Position numbers and translations under genes: made by a program | The notes under the pieces: model-generated | What the model was told of the DNA's origin: nothing | Databases searched by the model: none | Seen by the model: only the letters and a program-made list of their open reading frames with translations | Part shown: in pieces, positions 45,371 to 62,701 of the stretch | How positions within the stretch are numbered: position 1 is the first letter of the stretch | Layout of the letters: each line of letters starts with the position of its first letter | NCBI RefSeq assembly: GCF_020421205.1 | Contig: NZ_JAIZZH010000002.1 | Coordinates: 248,001 to 312,000 of the forward strand | DNA: 64,000 nt | Source: Hymenobacter pini | GTDB taxonomy: Bacteria; Bacteroidota; Bacteroidia; Cytophagales; Hymenobacteraceae | Reading direction: 5' to 3'

Positions 45371-46705
45371 ATGGAAGTCACGTACCAGCTGCGCACGGAG
45401 CGGTTGTCCAAGAAAAAGGGCACCGCCCCTATTCAGATTACCTTCTGGTGGGATAACCGGCGGCTGCGCCTGAGCTCCGGCGAGTACTGCCGGCCGGCTG
45501 ACTGGAACGGCAAAACGGGCCGGGTGAAGGATAAGCCCGGCGCGTACGCCGACGCCATCAACCAGGTGCTCAGCCGCTGGAACCAGGCCGGCCAGGAAGC
45601 CCACCAGGAAGCGCGGCGCAACTGGCTGCGCCTGGATGAGCAGCAGATGGAGGATGCCCTACGCACGCGCTACCAGCAGCTGCTGGCCGAGGCCCGGGGC
45701 CTCACGCCGGCGGAGCTGCCAATACCGGTGCGCCGGCACGTGAGCCTGCTGGAGTACATGGACCAGTGGTGCGACTTTATGGAGAGCGTGGTCTCGGAGA
45801 AAACCGGCCGCCGGTTCAGCACCGGCTACCTGCGCCAGCTCCGCCACGTGCGCCAGGAGCTGGACAACTTCAGCCAGCAGCAGAAGTACCCGCTCACCTT
45901 CCAGAGCATGAATGCGGATTTCTACGCGAAGTTCCTCACCTACCAGGTAGAGGTGCTGGATAACGGCACCAACACGTTTGCCGGCTACATCAAGCGCATG
46001 AAGCAGTTTCTGTACTGGTGCGAAGACCGGGAGCTGCCCACCACGCCCAAGTTTCACGACTGGAAGGCCCGCGAAACCTACGTCGGGGCCGATTTTCTCA
46101 CCGCCGCCGAGCTGCGCCGCTGGGAGCAGGTCGAGCTGGATACCCCGGCCGTGGCGGCCCGCCTGCTGGAGGCCTTCCCCTTGAGCACGGGCACCCACGG
46201 CCGGCGCAAGCTCACCCTGCAGGATCACCTGCAGCGCCTGCAGCACGCCCGCGACAAGTTCCTGCTCTGCGCCTATACCGGCCTGCGCATCTCCGACGCC
46301 GACAGGCTCGCCCCCGAGCACATTCAGGGTGACCTGATCAAGCTGGAAGCCGGCAAAACCGGCATTCTCTGCTACATCCCCTTCCTGGACGATGAGGTGC
46401 TCAAGCCGGTGCAGCTGGTAGAGCAGTACGCCGGCCAGGGCCTGGCCACGTGCCTGCCCGCCACCTACGACCTGGACGAGTACCTGCCCCACATTGCCCA
46501 GCTCGCCGGCATCACGCGCCTGCACGTGACCTCGCGCATCGGCCGCAAAACCTTCGTGACCACGCGCATCTACCAGGGCGTGCCGCGCACCCAGGTGATG
46601 CTGGCCACCGGCCACCAGACCGAAAAGAGCTTCCTGCGCTACCTGGGCACCAACGAGAAAGAACTGGTCGAAAGCTACCGACGCGTGGCCAAACTGGCCG
46701 CCTGA
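45371..46705 (+). CDS. Tyrosine recombinase/integrase
   Basis: 444-residue integrase of Bacteroidota type: N-terminal arm-binding domain, core-binding domain (SLLEYMDQWCDFM), and catalytic domain. Catalytic Arg306 (TGLRISDADRL), Lys329, Arg392 in SRIGRKTFVTT, His415 (TGHQTEKS) and nucleophile Tyr424 (FLRYLG). The first His of the usual HxxR is Arg389 here. Three GGTGGCGG repeats follow its stop. Likely the recombinase of one of the two elements. Confidence 0.93.
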   Translation: MEVTYQLRTERLSKKKGTAPIQITFWWDNRRLRLSSGEYCRPADWNGKTGRVKDKPGAYADAINQVLSRWNQAGQEAHQEARRNWLRLDEQQMEDALRTRYQQLLAEARGLTPAELPIPVRRHVSLLEYMDQWCDFMESVVSEKTGRRFSTGYLRQLRHVRQELDNFSQQQKYPLTFQSMNADFYAKFLTYQVEVLDNGTNTFAGYIKRMKQFLYWCEDRELPTTPKFHDWKARETYVGADFLTAAELRRWEQVELDTPAVAARLLEAFPLSTGTHGRRKLTLQDHLQRLQHARDKFLLCAYTGLRISDADRLAPEHIQGDLIKLEAGKTGILCYIPFLDDEVLKPVQLVEQYAGQGLATCLPATYDLDEYLPHIAQLAGITRLHVTSRIGRKTFVTTRIYQGVPRTQVMLATGHQTEKSFLRYLGTNEKELVESYRRVAKLAA

Positions 46706-47405: not shown

Positions 47406-48218
47406 ATGGAGCAAGCGGACATATTATCCAAAGTGTACTACCTGGTCGGTGCTGTAGGAGGAATAGGCGTTATCCTAATAGGAGCATCTGTATTTATCAG
47501 CAGCTTAGTACAGCAGAAGCTGATTTATAGACTTCAGAGTCAAAACAATAGAGAGATTGAAGACATCAAGGCCATAATAGCCCAGAACAACACGTTCATA
47601 TCCAGTCTAAACTCAAACCACAGTGCTGTATATCAAAAGTTACAGGCTAAAAGATTAGAGGTAGTAGATGAATATTGGAAGTGCATATTAAAGTCCAAGA
47701 ATAGTATACCAGGCTGTGTATATCTAATGCACCGAGTTCTAAATGACAAAGAGCTTACAGACGTTGAGCAAATTGGGCGATCTAAAAGCTGGGGTCGTGA
47801 TCTATCGTCCCTTTCAACAATAGAAGTGAACCAAATAATATTTGAAGCAACCAACCCTATCGACTATCAAAAACCATTCATCTCTAGCACCCTTTGGACT
47901 CTCAAGTATGCTTACGGGTCTATTATTGGAAGAACGACCTATCAGTTGATTGATGGCTATCAAAAGGGAGAGATAAAACCATGGAAGGAGGACAAACTGA
48001 TAAATCAGTCTATGTCACTAGTTCTATCAGCAGAAGAAATAAATAGCATAAAGGCTATGCCTTATGGTGGGGTCAACTATATGTTGGAATTACTAGAAAA
48101 TAAAATGGTGGATGAGATCCAGAGATTTATTTCTAATGATGATTTTATAAAAGATAGTGCTGATCAATTTAAAAGAATAACTCAACTCATAGGTCATAAT
48201 CCGAATATCAATTCTTAG
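47406..48218 (+). CDS. AT-rich membrane protein, possible defence moron
   Basis: 270 residues with one or two N-terminal membrane helices (LVGAVGGIGVILIGASVFI), then a coiled coil (LQSQNNREIEDIKAIIAQNN) and a helical domain. AT content is markedly higher than its surroundings. Lies between the lipoprotein and the recombinase; converges with the latter by 11 bases. No family recognised; a defence or exclusion role is only suggested by context. Confidence 0.65.
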   Translation: MEQADILSKVYYLVGAVGGIGVILIGASVFISSLVQQKLIYRLQSQNNREIEDIKAIIAQNNTFISSLNSNHSAVYQKLQAKRLEVVDEYWKCILKSKNSIPGCVYLMHRVLNDKELTDVEQIGRSKSWGRDLSSLSTIEVNQIIFEATNPIDYQKPFISSTLWTLKYAYGSIIGRTTYQLIDGYQKGEIKPWKEDKLINQSMSLVLSAEEINSIKAMPYGGVNYMLELLENKMVDEIQRFISNDDFIKDSADQFKRITQLIGHNPNINS

Positions 48219-48813
48219 CAGCCATATACTTATGCACAGTGCCCACTGGCACTCCAGTAGCTATGCTGATTTTACGGACGCTCAGGCCCTCGGACTGCAG
48301 CTGCTGGATATGCTCGACCAACTCAGGTGCTAGTGCACGACGGCCGTGGACATACACCTCCCCTTTCTCGGCGGCCTTTTGCTTCTTTCTGGCCAGGCCC
48401 GCACTCACATTTTCGCTCAGGCGCTGCGAGTAGTAGCCGGCGGCCCAGGATATCATGGCCTTCATCAGCTCCTTCATCGGGCCGGTGGTATTGAGCAGTG
48501 GTTCCGAGTAGCTCCAGAAGCTGACGCCGCACTGCTCCAGCAGCGACGTGTGCTCAAACACCTTCTCGATACCCTCGCGGCTGAAGCGACTTAGGTCCCA
48601 TACGCGCACTAGGTCGAACTTGCGCTTCTGGGCGTCGCGCATCATTTCCTGGAAAGCCCGGCGGTTGCTCTTGCGGCCGGAGTCTTCGTCGACGTACTCT
48701 TTATATACAGTGTCGCCTGCTCGTTCAGCCTCACGTCGTAAAACCATCAGCTGATTTTCGGGATCTTGGTCTTTGTCAGCGGTAGAGACGCGTGCGTAAA
48801 GGGCAACTCTCAT
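48208..48813 (-). CDS. Serine recombinase, copy 2
   Basis: 201 residues. Ser10 in YARVSTADKDQDPENQL; ARG/ASP in VWDLSRFSREGIEK; C-terminal HTH SVRKISIATGVPVGTVHKYM. Diverged from copy 1 but with the same order of domains. Start overlaps the stop of the AbiC-like gene by four bases (ATGA), thus same transcript. Confidence 0.93.
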   Translation of the reverse strand: MRVALYARVSTADKDQDPENQLMVLRREAERAGDTVYKEYVDEDSGRKSNRRAFQEMMRDAQKRKFDLVRVWDLSRFSREGIEKVFEHTSLLEQCGVSFWSYSEPLLNTTGPMKELMKAMISWAAGYYSQRLSENVSAGLARKKQKAAEKGEVYVHGRRALAPELVEHIQQLQSEGLSVRKISIATGVPVGTVHKYMAAKN

Positions 48814-49703: not shown

Positions 49704-52700
49704 TTACTTGATTTCAGCTTGCTTCCGGGTGGCCTCCCGTTCCTCCAGTATCCGCTCCAGCAGATGCACGTCCAGGTGCACGCCCAGCTCGCGGGCCCAC
49801 TGCTCCACGTCCTGCAAGCGTAGGTCCAGGCGGCGCAGCACGTCCACCAGCTGCTGGTCGGCCGAGGCCCCGCTGCCGGCGGCCGGCTCTACGTCGCCCG
49901 AGGTGGAGCCACCTTGGCGGAAGCCCGGGCCGCCGAGGCGCTTCTGCTCCAGCCATTGCTCGACCTGCACCACCTGCGGGTCGGCACGCATCCACTCCGG
50001 AATCACGTACTCATTCTCGTGCACGACGCCGGCAATCGGGAAACCCTCCGGATCCAGGAGCTTACCGCTGCTGCCCACGCTCAGGCCCGAGCCGGTGGCT
50101 CCCCCCTTGCGGAAGCCCAGGCCCAGGATTTTGCTGATACCCACGCCGGCGGCCGCGGTGGAGGCAATGTTGGCTCCGATGGTGTAGGCCGTGCCCAGGG
50201 CAATCGTAGCCGGCGGCGCCAGGGCCGAAATCTTGGCCCCAGCCTCGGCGTTGGCCGCATACTGCTTGGGCACGCTCATGCCGATTTCGGCAATGGCCAG
50301 CGCCTTCTGCGCCGCCACCCCGGCTTTATAGAGGATAGTCTTTTTGTTGGTCATCTCCAGCAGCGCGTTGAATTCATCGGAATTCAGCAGCCGGCGGGCG
50401 GCGGTGAGACCCTTCTCGATTTTATAGTACCCCTCATCCATGCCCTTGCGAGAGGCTAGGAAGTCCGCTTGGTTCCGGAGCTTCTCGGCCTGGAGCTTCT
50501 TATACTCGGCCGACTCCTCCCCGCCCTTCTGCTTGACCAGTTCCAGCTCCCGCTCCAGGGCCGCCTGCTTCACGGCGTACACTGCATCCTGAAAGGCCCA
50601 CTCATCCATAACGCCATTGGCCAGCTTTACCTCCAGCTCCGCTAGGCGCTGTTCTTCGTCAGCCTGGGCCCCGGCGATGCGCTTGTCCAGCTCCTCCTGT
50701 TTCTTTTTCTCCGACTCGGCATCGAAGGTAGCCTGCAACTCGCGTAGCTTCAGGTCGCGCGCCAGCAGGATATCCTCCACGCGCTGCGAGTAATCATTCT
50801 CCAGCCCGGTGAGTTTATCGACCTGCGCGCTGGCGTCCTGGAAGATTTTCTGCCGCTGCTCCTCGCGCCGCAGCTGCTCATCCGTATAGCCTTTCTGGTC
50901 CAGCTGGCTGCGCAGGGCGTCGCGGCCGCTGAATACAACTAACTCGTCTTTTACCAGCCGCTTCAGATCATCCAGGTGCTGCTGGTCGGCTTTGTCCTGG
51001 GCGGCTTTGGCTTCCTTGCGTGCCTTCTCACGGGCCGCCTGGGCCTCCTTGGCGGCTTTCTCGCGCTGCTCCTTGGTCGTGCCGTCGCCGCCGGCGCCAG
51101 GCCGGGTATCGGGCGCATCGCCCCCATCCTGGCTGGTGGCCGCCGCCTCGGCAGGGCGGGCCGCCCGGGTAGCATCAAACGCTTTCAGGTAGGCGCGGCC
51201 GGCGGCGCCCCCGATTTTATTGAACTCATCGACGGCACCGCTGATGTCGCCGGCCAGCACCGCTTTCCACGCCCGACCCACCTGGGTGAACGAGGCCCGG
51301 GCCGCGGCCGAGAAACCCTCAAAGAACGCCGGCGAGTCGCGCAGCATGTCAAAGAGCAGCCGCAGCGGGGCAATCATCAGGTAGATGACCGCCCGGGCGT
51401 CACTGGAGCTTTTCACCCACTCGATGGTGGACTTGGCCATGGCGGCAAACGCCTCGTAGCCCAGCCGCAGGGGCGTGAGCAGCAGGCGCAGTACGGCCCC
51501 GATGCCGCTGGCAATATCCTTGACCAGGCTGCCCTCCTTGCTGACCAGGCCCATGCTCTCGCCCAGCTCCAGCAGCTCCTGCCACACCTCCTGCACTGGC
51601 GCGTACAGTTCCTTGAACGTGGCCCCGAGCGAGGCCAGCAGCGTGTAGAGGAAGGTCATCGACTCATTGGTGAGAATATCGATGCTGTTGCCGGTGCCCT
51701 CAAACTGCTTGGTCAGCTCGTTCTGGGCCTCCGCCAGGTCGCGCTGCGAGCTGAGCAGGGCCTGCTGCTGGCGCACGTAGGGGTTGGTCTGATCGATGAG
51801 CGTTTCCACCCCGCCCCCGATGTTCTTCAGCGACTGCAAATACTCCAGGCCGGCATCTTCGCCCGGACCGCCGAACACGTCGGCAATGACGGTTTGCAGC
51901 TGCGAAGCCGGAATCTTGGTGTCGTTCATCTGCGTCGACACCAGTTGCAGGGCCTGCACCGACGAAATGGAGCCGTCATTGATGCCCTTGAACAGCTTCT
52001 GAGTAAACTCAGTACCGAAGGCCGCCTCCATGGCGTCGCCGGTGGCCTTGGTCTGCTCCCGGATCCGCAGGCCGAACTCCTTTACCACGTCGGCCCCCTT
52101 ATCGGAAAACACGCCCGAGGTCTGGGACTTGGTGACAATGCCGATGAATTCAGAGGCCGACACGCCGGCGGCCTTGAACTGGGCGGGGTATTCCTTCACC
52201 TGGTCGAGGAACTCGCCGTTCACGTCGGCACCGGCCACAAAGCCCTGCTCCAGCAACTTGAGCGCCTCCTTCTGGGAAATACCCATCTGCTTGCTCAGCG
52301 CGTTGCTGGCCACCAGCACTTCGTTGTATTCCTTACCGAAGGTTTGCGAGAGGGCGCGCACGCCCACGGTCAGCTCATCCAGCTCGGTGCCAGTGGCGCC
52401 GGTGAGCGAGTTGATATCGGCGCGCATCTTGCCGATTTCCTTCGTGGTGTTAATCACCTCGGCACCCAGCTCCTTAATCATGTCCAGGGCGGCCTCGGCT
52501 GTGACGGCCACGCCGGCGAAAGCAAGGGCATCCTTGAAGGTCAGGGCCGGCTCAGCAGCCTCACCCAACTCCTTCTTCACGCCCTCAATCCGCTCTTTCA
52601 GTTCTTTGTAGTCCTGAATCAGCTTCGCCCGGCCCGGGTCGTTGGCCGCCACTTCGTCCAGTTGCTTCTCCAACTGGGCAGCAGCTGCCTTCATTTGCCC

Positions 52701-53291
52701 GAAGGTAGCCTCCACTTTCTGGCCATTCAGGATAACCTGGCGGTTTTCCTGGTTCATGCGCTCGGTGGCCTCGGCGAGTTGCCGCTGCTCTTCGGCCAGT
52801 TCCTCGGCCGTTTTCTGGTAGGTACGCATTTCCGTACCAGCAGCCTGGATACGCTGCTGAAGTACCTGGTAGTCGCGCAGCAGGGCGGCCCGGCCCGGGT
52901 CGTCGGCCGATACCTCTTCCAGCTGCTTGGCCAGAATGCCGGCGGCATCCTTCATCTCACGCATTGATGCCGACGACTGCTGGCCTGTGCGCACGGTCGC
53001 CGCCTGAGACTGGGCCAGCTGCTCGGCCTGCTCCGCCAGCTGCTGCTGCTCAGCCGCCAGCTCCTCGGCCGTTTTCACGACGAGGCGCATTTCGGCGCGG
53101 GTTTCCTGGATACGTTGGTTCAGGCGGGCATAATCATCCTGCAACTTGGCCCGGCCGGGGTCATCGGCCGCCATTTTGGACAATTGACTATTGAGCACGC
53201 CCAAGCCTGCCGCCATCTCTTTGAGACTGGCGTTGGGCTGCTGCGCGTCGACGACAATCTTAACTTTCCGCTCTTCGGGGGTCTCCGCCAT
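49704..53291 (-). CDS. Phage tail tape-measure protein
   Basis: 1195 residues; sets the tail length and enters the host cell with the DNA. N-terminal three repeats with period about 87 residues, each containing DDPGRA (at 43, 130 and 218) and, in the first two, KTAEELA. The TP901-type core (about 250-560) has GATGTELDELTVGVRALSQ and hydrophobic stretches. Further coiled coils follow. C-terminus carries the usual GxxxGG-type end (VHENEYVIPEWM, FRQGGST). Last structural gene. Confidence 0.95.
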   Translation of the reverse strand: MAETPEERKVKIVVDAQQPNASLKEMAAGLGVLNSQLSKMAADDPGRAKLQDDYARLNQRIQETRAEMRLVVKTAEELAAEQQQLAEQAEQLAQSQAATVRTGQQSSASMREMKDAAGILAKQLEEVSADDPGRAALLRDYQVLQQRIQAAGTEMRTYQKTAEELAEEQRQLAEATERMNQENRQVILNGQKVEATFGQMKAAAAQLEKQLDEVAANDPGRAKLIQDYKELKERIEGVKKELGEAAEPALTFKDALAFAGVAVTAEAALDMIKELGAEVINTTKEIGKMRADINSLTGATGTELDELTVGVRALSQTFGKEYNEVLVASNALSKQMGISQKEALKLLEQGFVAGADVNGEFLDQVKEYPAQFKAAGVSASEFIGIVTKSQTSGVFSDKGADVVKEFGLRIREQTKATGDAMEAAFGTEFTQKLFKGINDGSISSVQALQLVSTQMNDTKIPASQLQTVIADVFGGPGEDAGLEYLQSLKNIGGGVETLIDQTNPYVRQQQALLSSQRDLAEAQNELTKQFEGTGNSIDILTNESMTFLYTLLASLGATFKELYAPVQEVWQELLELGESMGLVSKEGSLVKDIASGIGAVLRLLLTPLRLGYEAFAAMAKSTIEWVKSSSDARAVIYLMIAPLRLLFDMLRDSPAFFEGFSAAARASFTQVGRAWKAVLAGDISGAVDEFNKIGGAAGRAYLKAFDATRAARPAEAAATSQDGGDAPDTRPGAGGDGTTKEQREKAAKEAQAAREKARKEAKAAQDKADQQHLDDLKRLVKDELVVFSGRDALRSQLDQKGYTDEQLRREEQRQKIFQDASAQVDKLTGLENDYSQRVEDILLARDLKLRELQATFDAESEKKKQEELDKRIAGAQADEEQRLAELEVKLANGVMDEWAFQDAVYAVKQAALERELELVKQKGGEESAEYKKLQAEKLRNQADFLASRKGMDEGYYKIEKGLTAARRLLNSDEFNALLEMTNKKTILYKAGVAAQKALAIAEIGMSVPKQYAANAEAGAKISALAPPATIALGTAYTIGANIASTAAAGVGISKILGLGFRKGGATGSGLSVGSSGKLLDPEGFPIAGVVHENEYVIPEWMRADPQVVQVEQWLEQKRLGGPGFRQGGSTSGDVEPAAGSGASADQQLVDVLRRLDLRLQDVEQWARELGVHLDVHLLERILEEREATRKQAEIK

Positions 53292-58742: not shown

Positions 58743-58769
58743 AGCCCCTCCGCACGGTGCGGAGGGGCT
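58743..58769 (-). terminator. Terminator closing the amidoligase cassette
   Basis: Perfect 12-bp stem AGCCCCTCCGCA with complement and loop CGG; a T run follows on the minus strand. Confidence 0.88.
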
Positions 58770-58888
58770 AGTCGATGGGGAGCATGGGCAGGCCGCCCTG
58801 GGCATTTCAGTGCGTAGCCGAGCGGCCAAACTACGCACGCCAAACCATCTGCCTGGCCCGAGGGCCGCTCCCCGCTGTCGGGAGTGGT

Positions 58889-59122
58889 TTATGCGGGGAT
58901 AAGGAACCCGAACTGCTTCAGGTCGCTGACGAAGTTAGCAATGGAATCGATACGAATGGTGTCGCCGGTTTGGAACTTGGCGCGTTCGGCCATGCCTTCC
59001 ATAAAATCTTCGATACCGACGCTGGGTAGCCAAGGCTGGGCGTCTTCACGCAGGGCCTGTACAATGCCCAAATCGGTGGAGGCCTTCAGCTGGCCCCCAC
59101 CGAGTATGTTGTATGTGGTCAT
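58889..59122 (-). CDS. 77-residue protein coupled to amidoligase (candidate substrate)
   Basis: 77 residues from MTTYNILGGGQLKA. Begins one base after the amidoligase stop (TAG-A-ATG), so expression is tightly coupled. Has a Gly-rich N-terminus (ILGGGQLKAS) and a helical, acidic middle ending FGFLIPA. No known family. As a small protein next to a carboxylate-amine ligase it could be the target or a partner. The role is inference. Confidence 0.7.
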   Translation of the reverse strand: MTTYNILGGGQLKASTDLGIVQALREDAQPWLPSVGIEDFMEGMAERAKFQTGDTIRIDSIANFVSDLKQFGFLIPA

Positions 59123-59123
59123 T

Positions 59124-60107
59124 CTAGCGGGTTTGTAGCGCCGTGCGGCGGCGGGTGTAGTAGGTAGCGATGTCGCGCTGGTTAAAGTTAGCAAAGTCCG
59201 TTACGCTGTTGGTGGCGGGTACTTCGTGCTGGCGGCTGTACTCTACGAGGTTGAGCAGGAAGCGTACCCAAAAAATTACTTTGTCGGCGTTGGTGCTGCC
59301 GCTATGCTGGCGGAATTCGATGGTACCGTGGCGGAAGAAAGCCTGCAAATTTACCTTGTAGTAGCGGCTGGTGCCGTTGATGGCCGTGGCCAGGGCCTGG
59401 GTAGTCGTGGCGGCGCGTATGGCCTCCTCGGTGGCGGTTAGGGTACGTCCGCCCTGGATGCTCCGGCAGTAGGTGTTGTTGTTGGCGCGGCGGCTGCTGG
59501 GCATCAGCTGGTCGATGGTCCGCTCCAGGCGCAGGTAGTTGAGGCAAATCCGGCGCAGGTGCTCCAGGGTCAGGTCGCGGGCGTCTATGTGCACGTGCAG
59601 GCCGCAGGAGTCGTTTACGTTGGCGTTGGTGGTATTCAGGGCCCGGCAGGCCCGGCGTACATCCTCCAGCCCGTCGCAGCCGTTCAGTACGGGGCTTACC
59701 AGTTCGAAGGCGTTCTGGCCGCTTACGCTGGCGTCCGATACGATTTTCCAGTGGGGGCGGGTGGTGTGGTTGTAGCCTTCGCCCTGGGCTTCAATACCCT
59801 GGGCCTCCAGCTCGCCGAGCAGGGCGGTGCGGGTCGGGCCGAAGGCTTCGATTTCTACGCCGAAGTTGCGGGCTACGGTGCGGGGCGTGAAGGTTGCCCA
59901 GGTAGCGGCGGCGGGGGTTGGTACCGGCGTGGCCAGGGCGGCGGTGGCGCGGGTAGTTACCCAGGCGGCGTACACGTTCTGGGCGAAGCCGTAGCCTACG
60001 TTCATCATGGTGGCTACTTCGCGGCGGGTGTGGCCCAGGGCGAAGAGGCACTGCATTTTCCAGGTTTTCGTTACTCCGGTGGTGGCGAGGATTTGGGCGG
60101 CGGTCAT
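59124..60107 (-). CDS. Amidoligase (COOH-NH2 ligase, ATP-grasp/GS-like)
   Basis: 327 residues. Should form an amide bond between a carboxyl and an amine group with ATP. N-terminal 60 residues form an HTH-like helix bundle (LGHTRREVATMMNVGYG). Catalytic part begins with NFGVEIEAFG (the two Glu), continues with SDASVSGQNAFELVSPVL, GLHVHIDARD and ends with GTIEFRQHSG. These are the typical signatures of the putative amidoligase family. Sits alone between lysis and tail genes. Confidence 0.9.
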   Translation of the reverse strand: MTAAQILATTGVTKTWKMQCLFALGHTRREVATMMNVGYGFAQNVYAAWVTTRATAALATPVPTPAAATWATFTPRTVARNFGVEIEAFGPTRTALLGELEAQGIEAQGEGYNHTTRPHWKIVSDASVSGQNAFELVSPVLNGCDGLEDVRRACRALNTTNANVNDSCGLHVHIDARDLTLEHLRRICLNYLRLERTIDQLMPSSRRANNNTYCRSIQGGRTLTATEEAIRAATTTQALATAINGTSRYYKVNLQAFFRHGTIEFRQHSGSTNADKVIFWVRFLLNLVEYSRQHEVPATNSVTDFANFNQRDIATYYTRRRTALQTR

Positions 60108-60141
60108 ATTCGTAAGGCGTTGTTTGCGTGTCGTTTAGTAT

Positions 60142-60227
60142 GACAAACAACGCATCACTTGGCCCGACGAGTCAAGTCACAAAACCTTATTTCCAGCTCA
60201 AAAACGAAGATTCCATGCACGGTGCAA
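60142..60227 (-). promoter_or_regulatory. Duplicated 85-bp leader/promoter, copy A
   Basis: Upstream of the amidoligase. Aligns at about 70 % with 60480-60564; shared words GACAAAC, ACGCATC, CAAGTCA, GATTCCA and GCACGGTGC. It carries TTG and GTTTG boxes in minus-strand orientation. Confidence 0.65.
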
Positions 60228-60303
60228 CACACCGATTAGGCGTGTGCAATCGTGCGCGCACGTGGCCAGTGCCGCCGGCGTTACCCAGGCAGAAAGAAGG
60301 CGT

Positions 60304-60453
60304 TTATCGGGCGGGCTGCTCGACAGGATTCCCGTTCCAATCCACCCACTTCACCTTCCGGGCGTTGGCTTCCGCAATGAACTCTGCCACGCTCTGGCGG
60401 TGGCTAACGCGTTTGCGCTTGGGGGTGGCGGCAGGGGTTGAAGGCTGGCTCAT
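60304..60453 (-). CDS. Small basic protein, cassette member
   Basis: 49 residues from MSQPSTPAATPKRKR. Basic first half, then helix AEFIAEANARKVKWVDW. Too short to name. The same leader as for the amidoligase lies 27 bases upstream, which supports that it is a real gene. Confidence 0.6.
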   Translation of the reverse strand: MSQPSTPAATPKRKRVSHRQSVAEFIAEANARKVKWVDWNGNPVEQPAR

Positions 60454-60479
60454 GACGTGGCGTTTTCGTGTGGTAGTGG

Positions 60480-60564
60480 GACAAACCACGCATCGTTTTT
60501 CGGCCGTTCCAAGTCAAAAAACCACTATTTCAGCACGCTGCTGCAGATTCCAGGCACGGTGCCA
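60480..60564 (-). promoter_or_regulatory. Duplicated 85-bp leader/promoter, copy B
   Basis: Second copy, before the 49-residue gene. The end GGCACGGTGCC is a near-palindrome and may be an operator. Confidence 0.65.
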
Positions 60565-60598
60565 TGGTGTGACTGGAATGGTGCAATCCGGCACAAAA

Positions 60599-60626
60599 AA
60601 AGCCCCGGGCCGTCGCCCAGGGCTTT
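60599..60626 (-). terminator. Terminator between lysis genes and amidoligase cassette
   Basis: Stem AAAGCCCCGGGC against GCCCAGGGCTTT with one mismatch, loop CGTC; A run upstream gives a T run on the minus strand. Confidence 0.8.
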
Positions 60627-60686: not shown

Positions 60687-60995
60687 TTACTCCGATTCCA
60701 GTTCTTCGATGCGTTTTTCCAGACCGGCCACAACCTGAATCAATCCCTGCTCCAGGTTGCTCAGCGGCGTGAGTGGGTACAGGTCGTAGGCACCCAGGAT
60801 GGCCAGGCCTTCCCCCACACCTACAAACACCGGGGCAGCCTTGGGCTGGCGAGGCGGCGGCTCTGGGGCCGCCTCCTGCTCGGGAGCTGATGCGTCGCCG
60901 GGCTGCCAGCGAAATCCGTCGTCGGTACCGTTGGGGTCCGGATCTGGGGGCCGATTGCCGAAGCCAATCGGGCGCTTGGGTGGGGTTTTAGCCAT
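60687..60995 (-). CDS. Hypothetical phage protein
   Basis: 102 residues from MAKTPPKRP. N-terminal 60 residues are Pro/Asp-rich and disordered; the end is a helix (LEQGLIQVVAGLEKRIEELE), suggesting oligomerisation. Follows the lysis genes. Confidence 0.6.
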   Translation of the reverse strand: MAKTPPKRPIGFGNRPPDPDPNGTDDGFRWQPGDASAPEQEAAPEPPPRQPKAAPVFVGVGEGLAILGAYDLYPLTPLSNLEQGLIQVVAGLEKRIEELESE

Positions 60996-61164
60996 GGTAC
61001 AGCAGTCGTGGCAAGCCGGGGTAATCGCTGCGAACACCAGTAAACTCTTCCGAGCACCTTAGCATACGGGTCATGCTCCCGCTCTACACCCCGGCCGTAT
61101 GACGACGGCCGAAGTGCTCGGATTGTGATTTTACTAGTAGTTCGCGTGGCGAAGGTAGGAAACC

Positions 61165-61198: not shown

Positions 61199-61603
61199 TT
61201 ATTTGCGCCAGGGCTTCAGCCAGCAGACCAGGCTAATAGCACCCAGAACTACCAAGCCAATCGTCAGCTGCTGGCCGGTAATCCCCTCCTGCACAGTACT
61301 GGTGGTTTCCGGGTTACCAACATTCTTCAGCTTCACTTTGCGGGCAGCCGGCGCATTCACGTTGGCCAGGGCCTGGGTCTGGGCGGCCACCCACTTCTCC
61401 CGCTGCTTCGGCGTGGCCGCCGGCGGCGGCGGCACCAGGTACGCCGGCAGCTGGGCCTGCGTCTGCAGCTGCTCGGGCGTGGGCGCCGCCACCAGGGGCG
61501 GCACCTCCCGAGTGGCCGCGCAGCCGGCGGCCAGGTAGAAGATCAGCAGGATGAAAGCAATCAGGGCCCAATCCCGGAATTTGAGTTCTTTTAGTGCATT
61601 CAT
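61199..61603 (-). CDS. Small lysis-associated membrane protein (spanin-like)
   Basis: 134 residues. One N-terminal membrane helix with a lipobox-like Cys (LIFYLAAGCAATR), then a Pro/Gln-rich, helical part (LQTQAQLPAYLVPP, KQREKWVAAQTQAL) and a second hydrophobic stretch at the end (LTIGLVVLGAISLVCWL). This topology fits an inner/outer membrane linking (spanin-like) role. Overlaps the endolysin by four bases. Confidence 0.65.
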   Translation of the reverse strand: MNALKELKFRDWALIAFILLIFYLAAGCAATREVPPLVAAPTPEQLQTQAQLPAYLVPPPPAATPKQREKWVAAQTQALANVNAPAARKVKLKNVGNPETTSTVQEGITGQQLTIGLVVLGAISLVCWLKPWRK

Positions 61604-62160
61604 GACGCCGCCGGTTTAGGAACTACACCACCCGGAATGCCCAGGGCCTTGGCGGCCACCAGGAACCGGTTCATTCGGTCCGCATATCCGTTGGTGCCCC
61701 CGTTGATGCGCTTGGTGATGGTATCGAAGAAGTTGCCGTCGGCCAGCTCATTGAGGTTGCGGCTGTTCCAGTACCAGCCGGCCGACATGGCGGCATGCAG
61801 GGGCTGCTCCAGCAGCAGCGGGTTGGCAATGAAGTCCACGTTGAACGCCTTGCTCAGGGCGAAGTAGTTGGCCCGGCCGGTAATCTGAATCAGACCGCGG
61901 CCGCGGAACTTCACCCCGTCCCCTTTGTAGACGTTGCCCAGATCTTTGCGGCCCTCGTAGGCCGCGCCGGAGGCATATTCGCGCACGGCATCCAGGCCGC
62001 AGGACTCGTGGCCAATCTGGGCCAGGAAGTGGGCCACGCGCAGGGGCGTGTCAATTTTAAACACCGCCAAGGTGGTGTTGATGGCGCCGAGGAACTTGTC
62101 GGCCTCGGCGGCGGTGGTGCCCACCAGGGCAGCCATCAGCAGTTGTTTGGTCAGCTGCAT
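61600..62160 (-). CDS. GH19-type endolysin
   Basis: 186 residues from MQLTKQLL; the upstream Met of the longer frame is in the holin overlap. Cell-wall hydrolase of the GH19 (chitinase-fold) family. Catalytic Glu in FLAQIGHESCGLDAV, a second acidic in YEGRKDLGN, and FRGRGLIQITGRANY. No signal peptide, so it depends on the holin. Confidence 0.9.
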   Translation of the reverse strand: MQLTKQLLMAALVGTTAAEADKFLGAINTTLAVFKIDTPLRVAHFLAQIGHESCGLDAVREYASGAAYEGRKDLGNVYKGDGVKFRGRGLIQITGRANYFALSKAFNVDFIANPLLLEQPLHAAMSAGWYWNSRNLNELADGNFFDTITKRINGGTNGYADRMNRFLVAAKALGIPGGVVPKPAAS

Positions 62161-62170
62161 ACAGTAAAAT

Positions 62171-62701
62171 TTAACCAATGGAAACGTCTCGAACAGGTGG
62201 CTCCGGCAGGGCCGTACTCAGCTCAGCATCCGGCACCGCCAGCAGCTCCTCGGGCGGTATTTTGCTGCGGAACTGGCCGGTTTCTTCCCAGTCCTGCATG
62301 CCCTTGCGCAGAAACTTGGGCAGCGGCAGGCCGGCTCCTCCCAGGTTGCGCAGGTTCTCATCGATGCTCTTCGTTTCGATGATCAGGATGAAGAAGTAGA
62401 TGGCCCCCTTGAAGCCGATGGCCAGGTAGGGCGCCAGGGGCAGCGGCTGGCCATCGACCTGCACCGAGCTGAGCACGTGGGCTACTACCAGGCCCACGGC
62501 GTAGTCGCGCAGCTTGGTGAACATCTGACGCATACCCCGGGAGTGGAAGCGCCCCTGCCGGAAGCTGCGCACCATGCCCAGGCTGGTATCGAGCAGAAAC
62601 AGCACCATCAGAAACACCAGGGCATTCCAGTCGCTGAACACGTATTTTTCAATGAAGCGGGCCCCCATTTCCAGCGCCGGCGGCAGTAGTAAAGTCAGCA
62701 T
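62171..62701 (-). CDS. Phage holin (Phage_holin_4-like)
   Basis: 176 residues, with membrane helices at about 25-40, 75-90 and 98-115 (ALVFLMVLFLLDTSLG, AIGFKGAIYFFILIIETKS). The sequence ETKSIDENLRNLGG with following PLP is typical of the holin_4 family. Opens the inner membrane for the endolysin. Overlaps the neighbouring gene by one base. Confidence 0.85.
   Translation of the reverse strand: MLTLLLPPALEMGARFIEKYVFSDWNALVFLMVLFLLDTSLGMVRSFRQGRFHSRGMRQMFTKLRDYAVGLVVAHVLSSVQVDGQPLPLAPYLAIGFKGAIYFFILIIETKSIDENLRNLGGAGLPLPKFLRKGMQDWEETGQFRSKIPPEELLAVPDAELSTALPEPPVRDVSIG

Follow-up and report, generated by a model that had tools for sequence, protein, structure and literature searches.

Genes of the Amidoligase_2 family (PF12224) are common in bacteriophages. 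Carboxylate–amine ligase activity of this family is a published prediction, and no report of a demonstrated substrate for a phage member was found in the literature searched. Phage amidoligase cassettes have been described in phiEco32, RIO-1-like and LUZ24-like podoviruses (Iyer et al. 2009, as cited in PMC5498523, PMC10580990 and PMC11318856). These papers carry a proposal by earlier authors: a phage amidoligase accompanied by an amidotransferase or a cyclotransferase would modify the peptides of peptidoglycan and prevent superinfection. A cell-wall change combined with a superinfection block is a hypothesis for phiEco32/RIO-1-type phages too (PMC5498523 and PMC10580990), and the literature searched yielded no demonstration of peptidoglycan modification by phage amidoligases.

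The locus described here, found in a 64,000-nt window (the whole stretch of DNA that was analysed; contig C8, 248001–312000) of a Hymenobacteraceae genome with close relatives in Hymenobacter, resembles these cassettes in that an amidoligase-family enzyme, predicted to be an ATP-dependent ligase, is encoded in a phage accessory cassette with a partner gene close by. It differs from them in the identity of that partner. The phiEco32/RIO-1/LUZ24-type cassettes contain a glutamine amidotransferase, a gamma-glutamyl cyclotransferase and often an ATP-grasp enzyme, none of which lies beside the cassette here, whereas the Hymenobacter cassette has a small, non-enzymatic-looking partner and an amidoligase with an N-terminal helix-turn-helix. 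The genome as a whole had no match to PF06094 (gamma-glutamyl cyclotransferase, AIG2-like), present in 9 of 14 control genomes, and the gamma-glutamyl cycle is therefore incomplete here.

Reading rightwards from 48208, the minus strand of the window encodes an invertase, the tape measure protein and other tail proteins, followed by the cassette and, beyond it, endolysin and holin; portal, terminase and DNA methyltransferase genes follow on the right, mostly outside the window. Together with the integrase gene, these tail, lysis, portal and terminase genes around the cassette identify the region as a prophage, and the cassette lies between lysis and tail genes (Table 1), as stated in a preliminary description made from the sequence. 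The invertase gene (48208–48813), at the tail end of the prophage, encodes a DNA-invertase-like serine recombinase, so that tail-gene switching is possible, and a prophage protein combining a ParB-like domain with a DNA methyltransferase (L184, 7120–8406) adjoins the terminase genes.

Table 1 Features of the amidoligase cassette and its prophage setting (window positions)
Feature	Position	Strand	Details
Integrase gene	45371–46705		In the window
Tape measure gene	49704–53291		Tail side of cassette
Intrinsic terminator downstream of 77-aa gene	58743–58769	−	12-bp stem and T-run; −25.2 kcal/mol, z −5.9 vs shuffles
77-aa partner protein	58889–59122	−	Starts 1 nt after amidoligase stop (TAG-A-ATG); predicted strand-strand-helix-helix-helix-strand fold
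Amidoligase, 327 aa	59124–60107	−	PF12224 Amidoligase_2, E 1.4e-44
Amidoligase parts			N-terminal helix-turn-helix, residues ~1–59; linker; glutamine-synthetase-like Amidoligase_2 domain, ~80–290; C-terminal helices
Amidoligase leader, promoter-like	60108–60200	−	CTTG (60173–60176), 21 nt, GTTGTTTG (60144–60151)
Inverted repeat	60117–60153	.	GCGTTGTTTG-17 nt-CAAACAACGC; overlaps putative −7 element; ends 9 nt before amidoligase start codon
49-aa orphan ORF	60304–60453	−	Behind second leader copy
Second, diverged leader copy	60454–60562	−	CTTG (60510–60513), 20 nt, GTGGTTTG (60482–60489)
Intrinsic terminator of upstream gene (60687–61037)	60599–60626	−	−26.5 kcal/mol, z −5.6 vs shuffles
Holin/endolysin	61600–62701		Other side of cassette

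The same description had proposed an insulated, moron-like cassette, and this was supported: the cassette is a moron-like two-gene unit of an amidoligase and a small folded protein, with flanking terminators, a conserved leader that is promoter-like in sequence, a late-gene position, patchy presence (14 of 204 Hymenobacteraceae genomes) and varied genomic slots. Both of the terminators placed at its ends proved to be real folds, but the one at 60599 follows the upstream gene, to which it belongs, and thus insulates the cassette rather than ending it. This hairpin had no entry in a mechanical terminator scan, yet it folds 5.6 s.d. better than shuffles, and most relatives have a terminator-like stretch at the equivalent position.

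The amidoligase contains the EIE, GLHVHIDARD and GTIEFRQHSG motifs noticed at the outset. Its match to PF12224 is full-length (profile positions 3–244 of 245) and well above the cut-off (153 vs 22 bits), with the catalytic motifs retained, and it also matches PHROG 2443 'amidoligase enzyme' (E 1.9e-49). The best PDB folds for its AlphaFold model (pLDDT 88.8) were YbdK and glutamine synthetases (E 1.6e-4 to 1e-3, Foldseek probability 1.0), with low TM-scores (~0.33–0.42). Residues E85, E87, E135, H171, H173, E264 and R266 were invariant across 18 aligned relatives and appear to be of the metal- and ATP-site type; the modelled enzyme thus combines the glutamine-synthetase-like fold with the conserved putative metal and ATP ligands of PF12224, and is predicted to be an intact ATP-dependent carboxylate–amine ligase. 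Most chromosomal Bacteroidota members of PF12224 that we found belong to another branch, two of the three read adjoining a class-I amidotransferase/C26 peptidase. The first 59 residues are modelled as helices of helix-turn-helix type, with a weak Pfam match (HTH_23, E 0.089). This part is missing from aligned amidoligases outside the Bacteroidota branch and from many amidoligases that are paired with the small protein, and is therefore not essential to the pair.

The 77-residue reading frame, one base past the amidoligase stop codon as first described, encodes a member of a new family, absent from Pfam, PHROGs and NCBIfam. Searches with it used single-sequence queries, as the whole alignment was too weakly conserved. 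Its model is compact (pLDDT 93.9), with a confident fold up to the last residues; a fold search of the PDB gave no significant match, and one unnamed viral protein in BFVD matched (E 2.8e-5, TM 0.90). Purifying selection was evident (dN 0.08–0.31 vs dS 0.72–1.75 in seven informative pairs; eight pairs, with L010–L011 left out as out of register). The pattern Y..(G/D)GG.I.A.S...(L/F)V..(L/M)R...F/W....(F/Y)M...A.R.K.Q.G..(I/V)RTDS...F..DL...GF is common to 32–38 distinct relatives. D67, R25 and R57 were the most conserved polar positions among aligned relatives, D67 being a near-invariant carboxylate (97% D/E), and the alignment contained no catalytic-looking conserved residues and no invariant lysine, while C-termini varied between groups.

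A check of whether homologous amidoligases usually lack this neighbour gave the opposite answer. In 204 Hymenobacteraceae genomes the amidoligase search returned 17 places in 16 genomes. Two of these were set aside, G068 because the contig breaks off there and G119 because it matches weakly and only in the N-terminal part; the remaining 15 amidoligases, intact and spread over 14 genomes, all had the small protein directly downstream. Among 73 related amidoligase loci, a set with some near-duplicates, 51 had the small protein downstream and five ended too soon to show a partner. Most of those lacking it had other enzymes: six a gamma-glutamyl cyclotransferase only, seven a class-II amidotransferase-like enzyme and two both, with no partner found in two. 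The small protein occurred alongside a gamma-glutamyl cyclotransferase in two of the 51 loci, and never together with a class-II amidotransferase-like enzyme in the loci read. Starting instead from the small protein alone, we retrieved 58 viral loci, all of which had a same-strand upstream amidoligase, mostly 5–37 nt away, although 52 of them represent one phage lineage and independent cases are therefore fewer than 58 suggests.

The pair was present in 7/7 Porphyromonas phage records and recurred in Prevotella, Bacteroides, Porphyromonas and Fibrisoma elements, where the other neighbours differ between groups (terminase, tape measure, endolysin, HicAB). Distance matrices of the amidoligase and the small protein were correlated (r = 0.91; 0/2000 permutations as high). 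The two genes are thus conserved and co-transmitted as a unit, in adjacent reading frames behind their own promoter-like region, and, since they occur next to each other in phages of many kinds, they very likely form one working unit.

We placed the partners on a maximum-likelihood tree of amidoligase catalytic domains, whose deep branches are weak and some of whose branches are long. A mostly Bacteroidota clade (30 rows, support 96/93) was small-protein-partnered except for L027, L040 and L055; these three, whose partner is a class-II amidotransferase-like enzyme, group together within it. The least number of partner-label changes on the tree, counting all partner types, was 6 vs 13.7 in shuffles, which indicates that an enzyme mostly keeps its partner by inheritance, with an occasional swap.

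A few relatives of the small protein without any amidoligase were also found (L076, L077, L122 and L123), and the domain can therefore have another use. L076 and L077 are stand-alone relatives in other Bacteroidota; the former (G226 C94, 1501–1725; 74 aa) has a mazG-like gene and a large uncharacterised gene as neighbours, in a genome with no PF12224 match. L122 and L123 are found in Hymenobacter and have an added C-terminal region. In L122 (G076 C26, 401–1965) a 154-aa protein of this kind lies directly behind an AbiTii-like gene (PADLOC AbiTii, E 1.3e-28), and protein search found no amidoligase in that genome. In another Hymenobacter prophage (L123/L185, G113 C16) a 149-aa protein with the small-protein domain (L185, 5060–5509) replaces the whole cassette and adjoins the tail-side gene that also follows the cassette in the window.

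Upstream of the amidoligase, the leader contains CTTG and GTTGTTTG, which we take to be Bacteroidota-type −33/−7 promoter elements; the same elements, 20–21 nt apart, were seen in the Hymenobacter relatives inspected, and another genus has a similar version of them. Two related leaders had been noted, and the alignment agrees (72% identity over 53 nt and 86% over 21 nt, offset 337–338 nt, repeats D1 and D7; core pattern twice in the window vs 0.07 expected). The leader of the 49-aa reading frame appears from this likeness to be a duplicated promoter region and, like the frame itself, was confined to this genome among the relatives read. The 49-residue basic protein had been counted as part of the set; no homolog was found in 71 other related loci or 119 other Hymenobacteraceae genomes, and it was therefore rejected as a third cassette member. 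In relatives L029 and L031 the gap upstream of the amidoligase (window 60108–60562) has different small ORFs.

The inverted repeat within the amidoligase leader, which like the helix-turn-helix had gone unmentioned in the preliminary description, has perfect 10-bp arms (0/200 shuffles as good) and is a candidate operator or hairpin. Most Hymenobacter leaders have similar repeats with 7–10 bp arms, and in four of the five other Hymenobacteraceae a repeat of different sequence occupies the same place; none was clearly significant in more distant loci. No compensatory changes or covariation were seen for an RNA hairpin at the amidoligase start, the second leader being uninformative for pairing since its 3′ arm aligns poorly. 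Given the nearly invariant 5′ arm and the overlapping promoter-like element, a DNA operator is at least as likely as an RNA hairpin. The N-terminal helix-turn-helix of the amidoligase would probably bind this repeat at the promoter and set the expression level.

Most likely, the amidoligase modifies a host target with the small protein as its accessory subunit, and to the subunit role itself we assign a probability of roughly 0.55. The small protein would bind the enzyme and serve substrate delivery, targeting or activity control, taking the position held in other phages by a gamma-glutamyl cyclotransferase or a class-II amidotransferase-like enzyme. With less certainty, the amidoligase may act on a molecule of the host, coupling an amine or amino acid to it; a peptide of the cell envelope or a protein would be the likeliest target. 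The envelope as the target is a tentative suggestion, on balance unlikely, which draws on the earlier proposal for phage amidoligase cassettes (PMC5498523 and PMC10580990). Such a modification might, again less certainly, help the lysogen or infected cell against competing phages.

The preliminary description had left the 77-residue protein as either substrate or partner, and it is the partner that the evidence favours. As a substrate, the small protein would receive an amine or amino acid, or be ligated to other proteins, and act as a phage tag or modified effector. Near-obligate adjacency and co-evolution are what tag/ligase or precursor/enzyme pairs display, and D67 could be a modification site. 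The Pup ligase PafA is likewise a glutamine-synthetase-fold ligase encoded with a small protein. Unlike Pup, however, which is disordered and has a conserved C-terminal attachment residue, the small protein is predicted to be folded, without a conserved C-terminal Glu/Gln motif; nor does it resemble a RiPP precursor, with a short leader–core peptide and variable core, as one predicted folded domain runs along its whole length. A folded domain with no invariant lysine and a variable C-terminus speaks for a binding partner rather than for a C-terminally joined tag or a precursor peptide, and the relatives without a ligase also count against a substrate, a role we regard as unlikely. More doubtful is a phage protein-modification system in which the small protein would be the dedicated substrate or carrier: the amidoligase would charge it with an amine or amino acid, or link it to proteins of the host, so as to reprogramme or protect the host; if true, the small-protein family would be a new kind of protein modifier.

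Less probable again is that the small protein is an antitoxin-like control or antidote restraining a host-damaging amidoligase and translated in step with it. The coupled gene order with 1-nt spacing, the stand-alone relatives (one beside an AbiTii-like gene) and the tight control suggested by the helix-turn-helix and operator-like repeat would fit this, but PADLOC matched neither protein, and other phage amidoligases without the small protein carry enzymes instead. Least probable of all is a virion- or packaging-related unit, in which the amidoligase would modify a phage structural protein with the small protein as chaperone or adaptor: the cassette does lie among late genes, and in Porphyromonas phages the pair sits between portal/adaptor and tail genes, but only some prophages have it, its slots vary, and the promoter-like leader together with the terminators suggests that it is expressed independently.

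The impression of a system not yet described thus holds in part. Both the enzyme family and the concept of phage amidoligase cassettes were known before, the peptidoglycan proposal included (PMC5498523, PMC10580990 and PMC11318856), but neither the small-protein family nor its near-obligate association with an amidoligase turned up in the libraries and literature searched, Iyer et al. 2009 lying outside that search. The replacement of the small protein by a class-II amidotransferase-like enzyme within one clade makes it possible to compare the roles of the two partners, and a near-obligate small partner, kept across phages of several bacterial families, makes this a system of two proteins whose small size would suit co-expression, crystallisation and assay.
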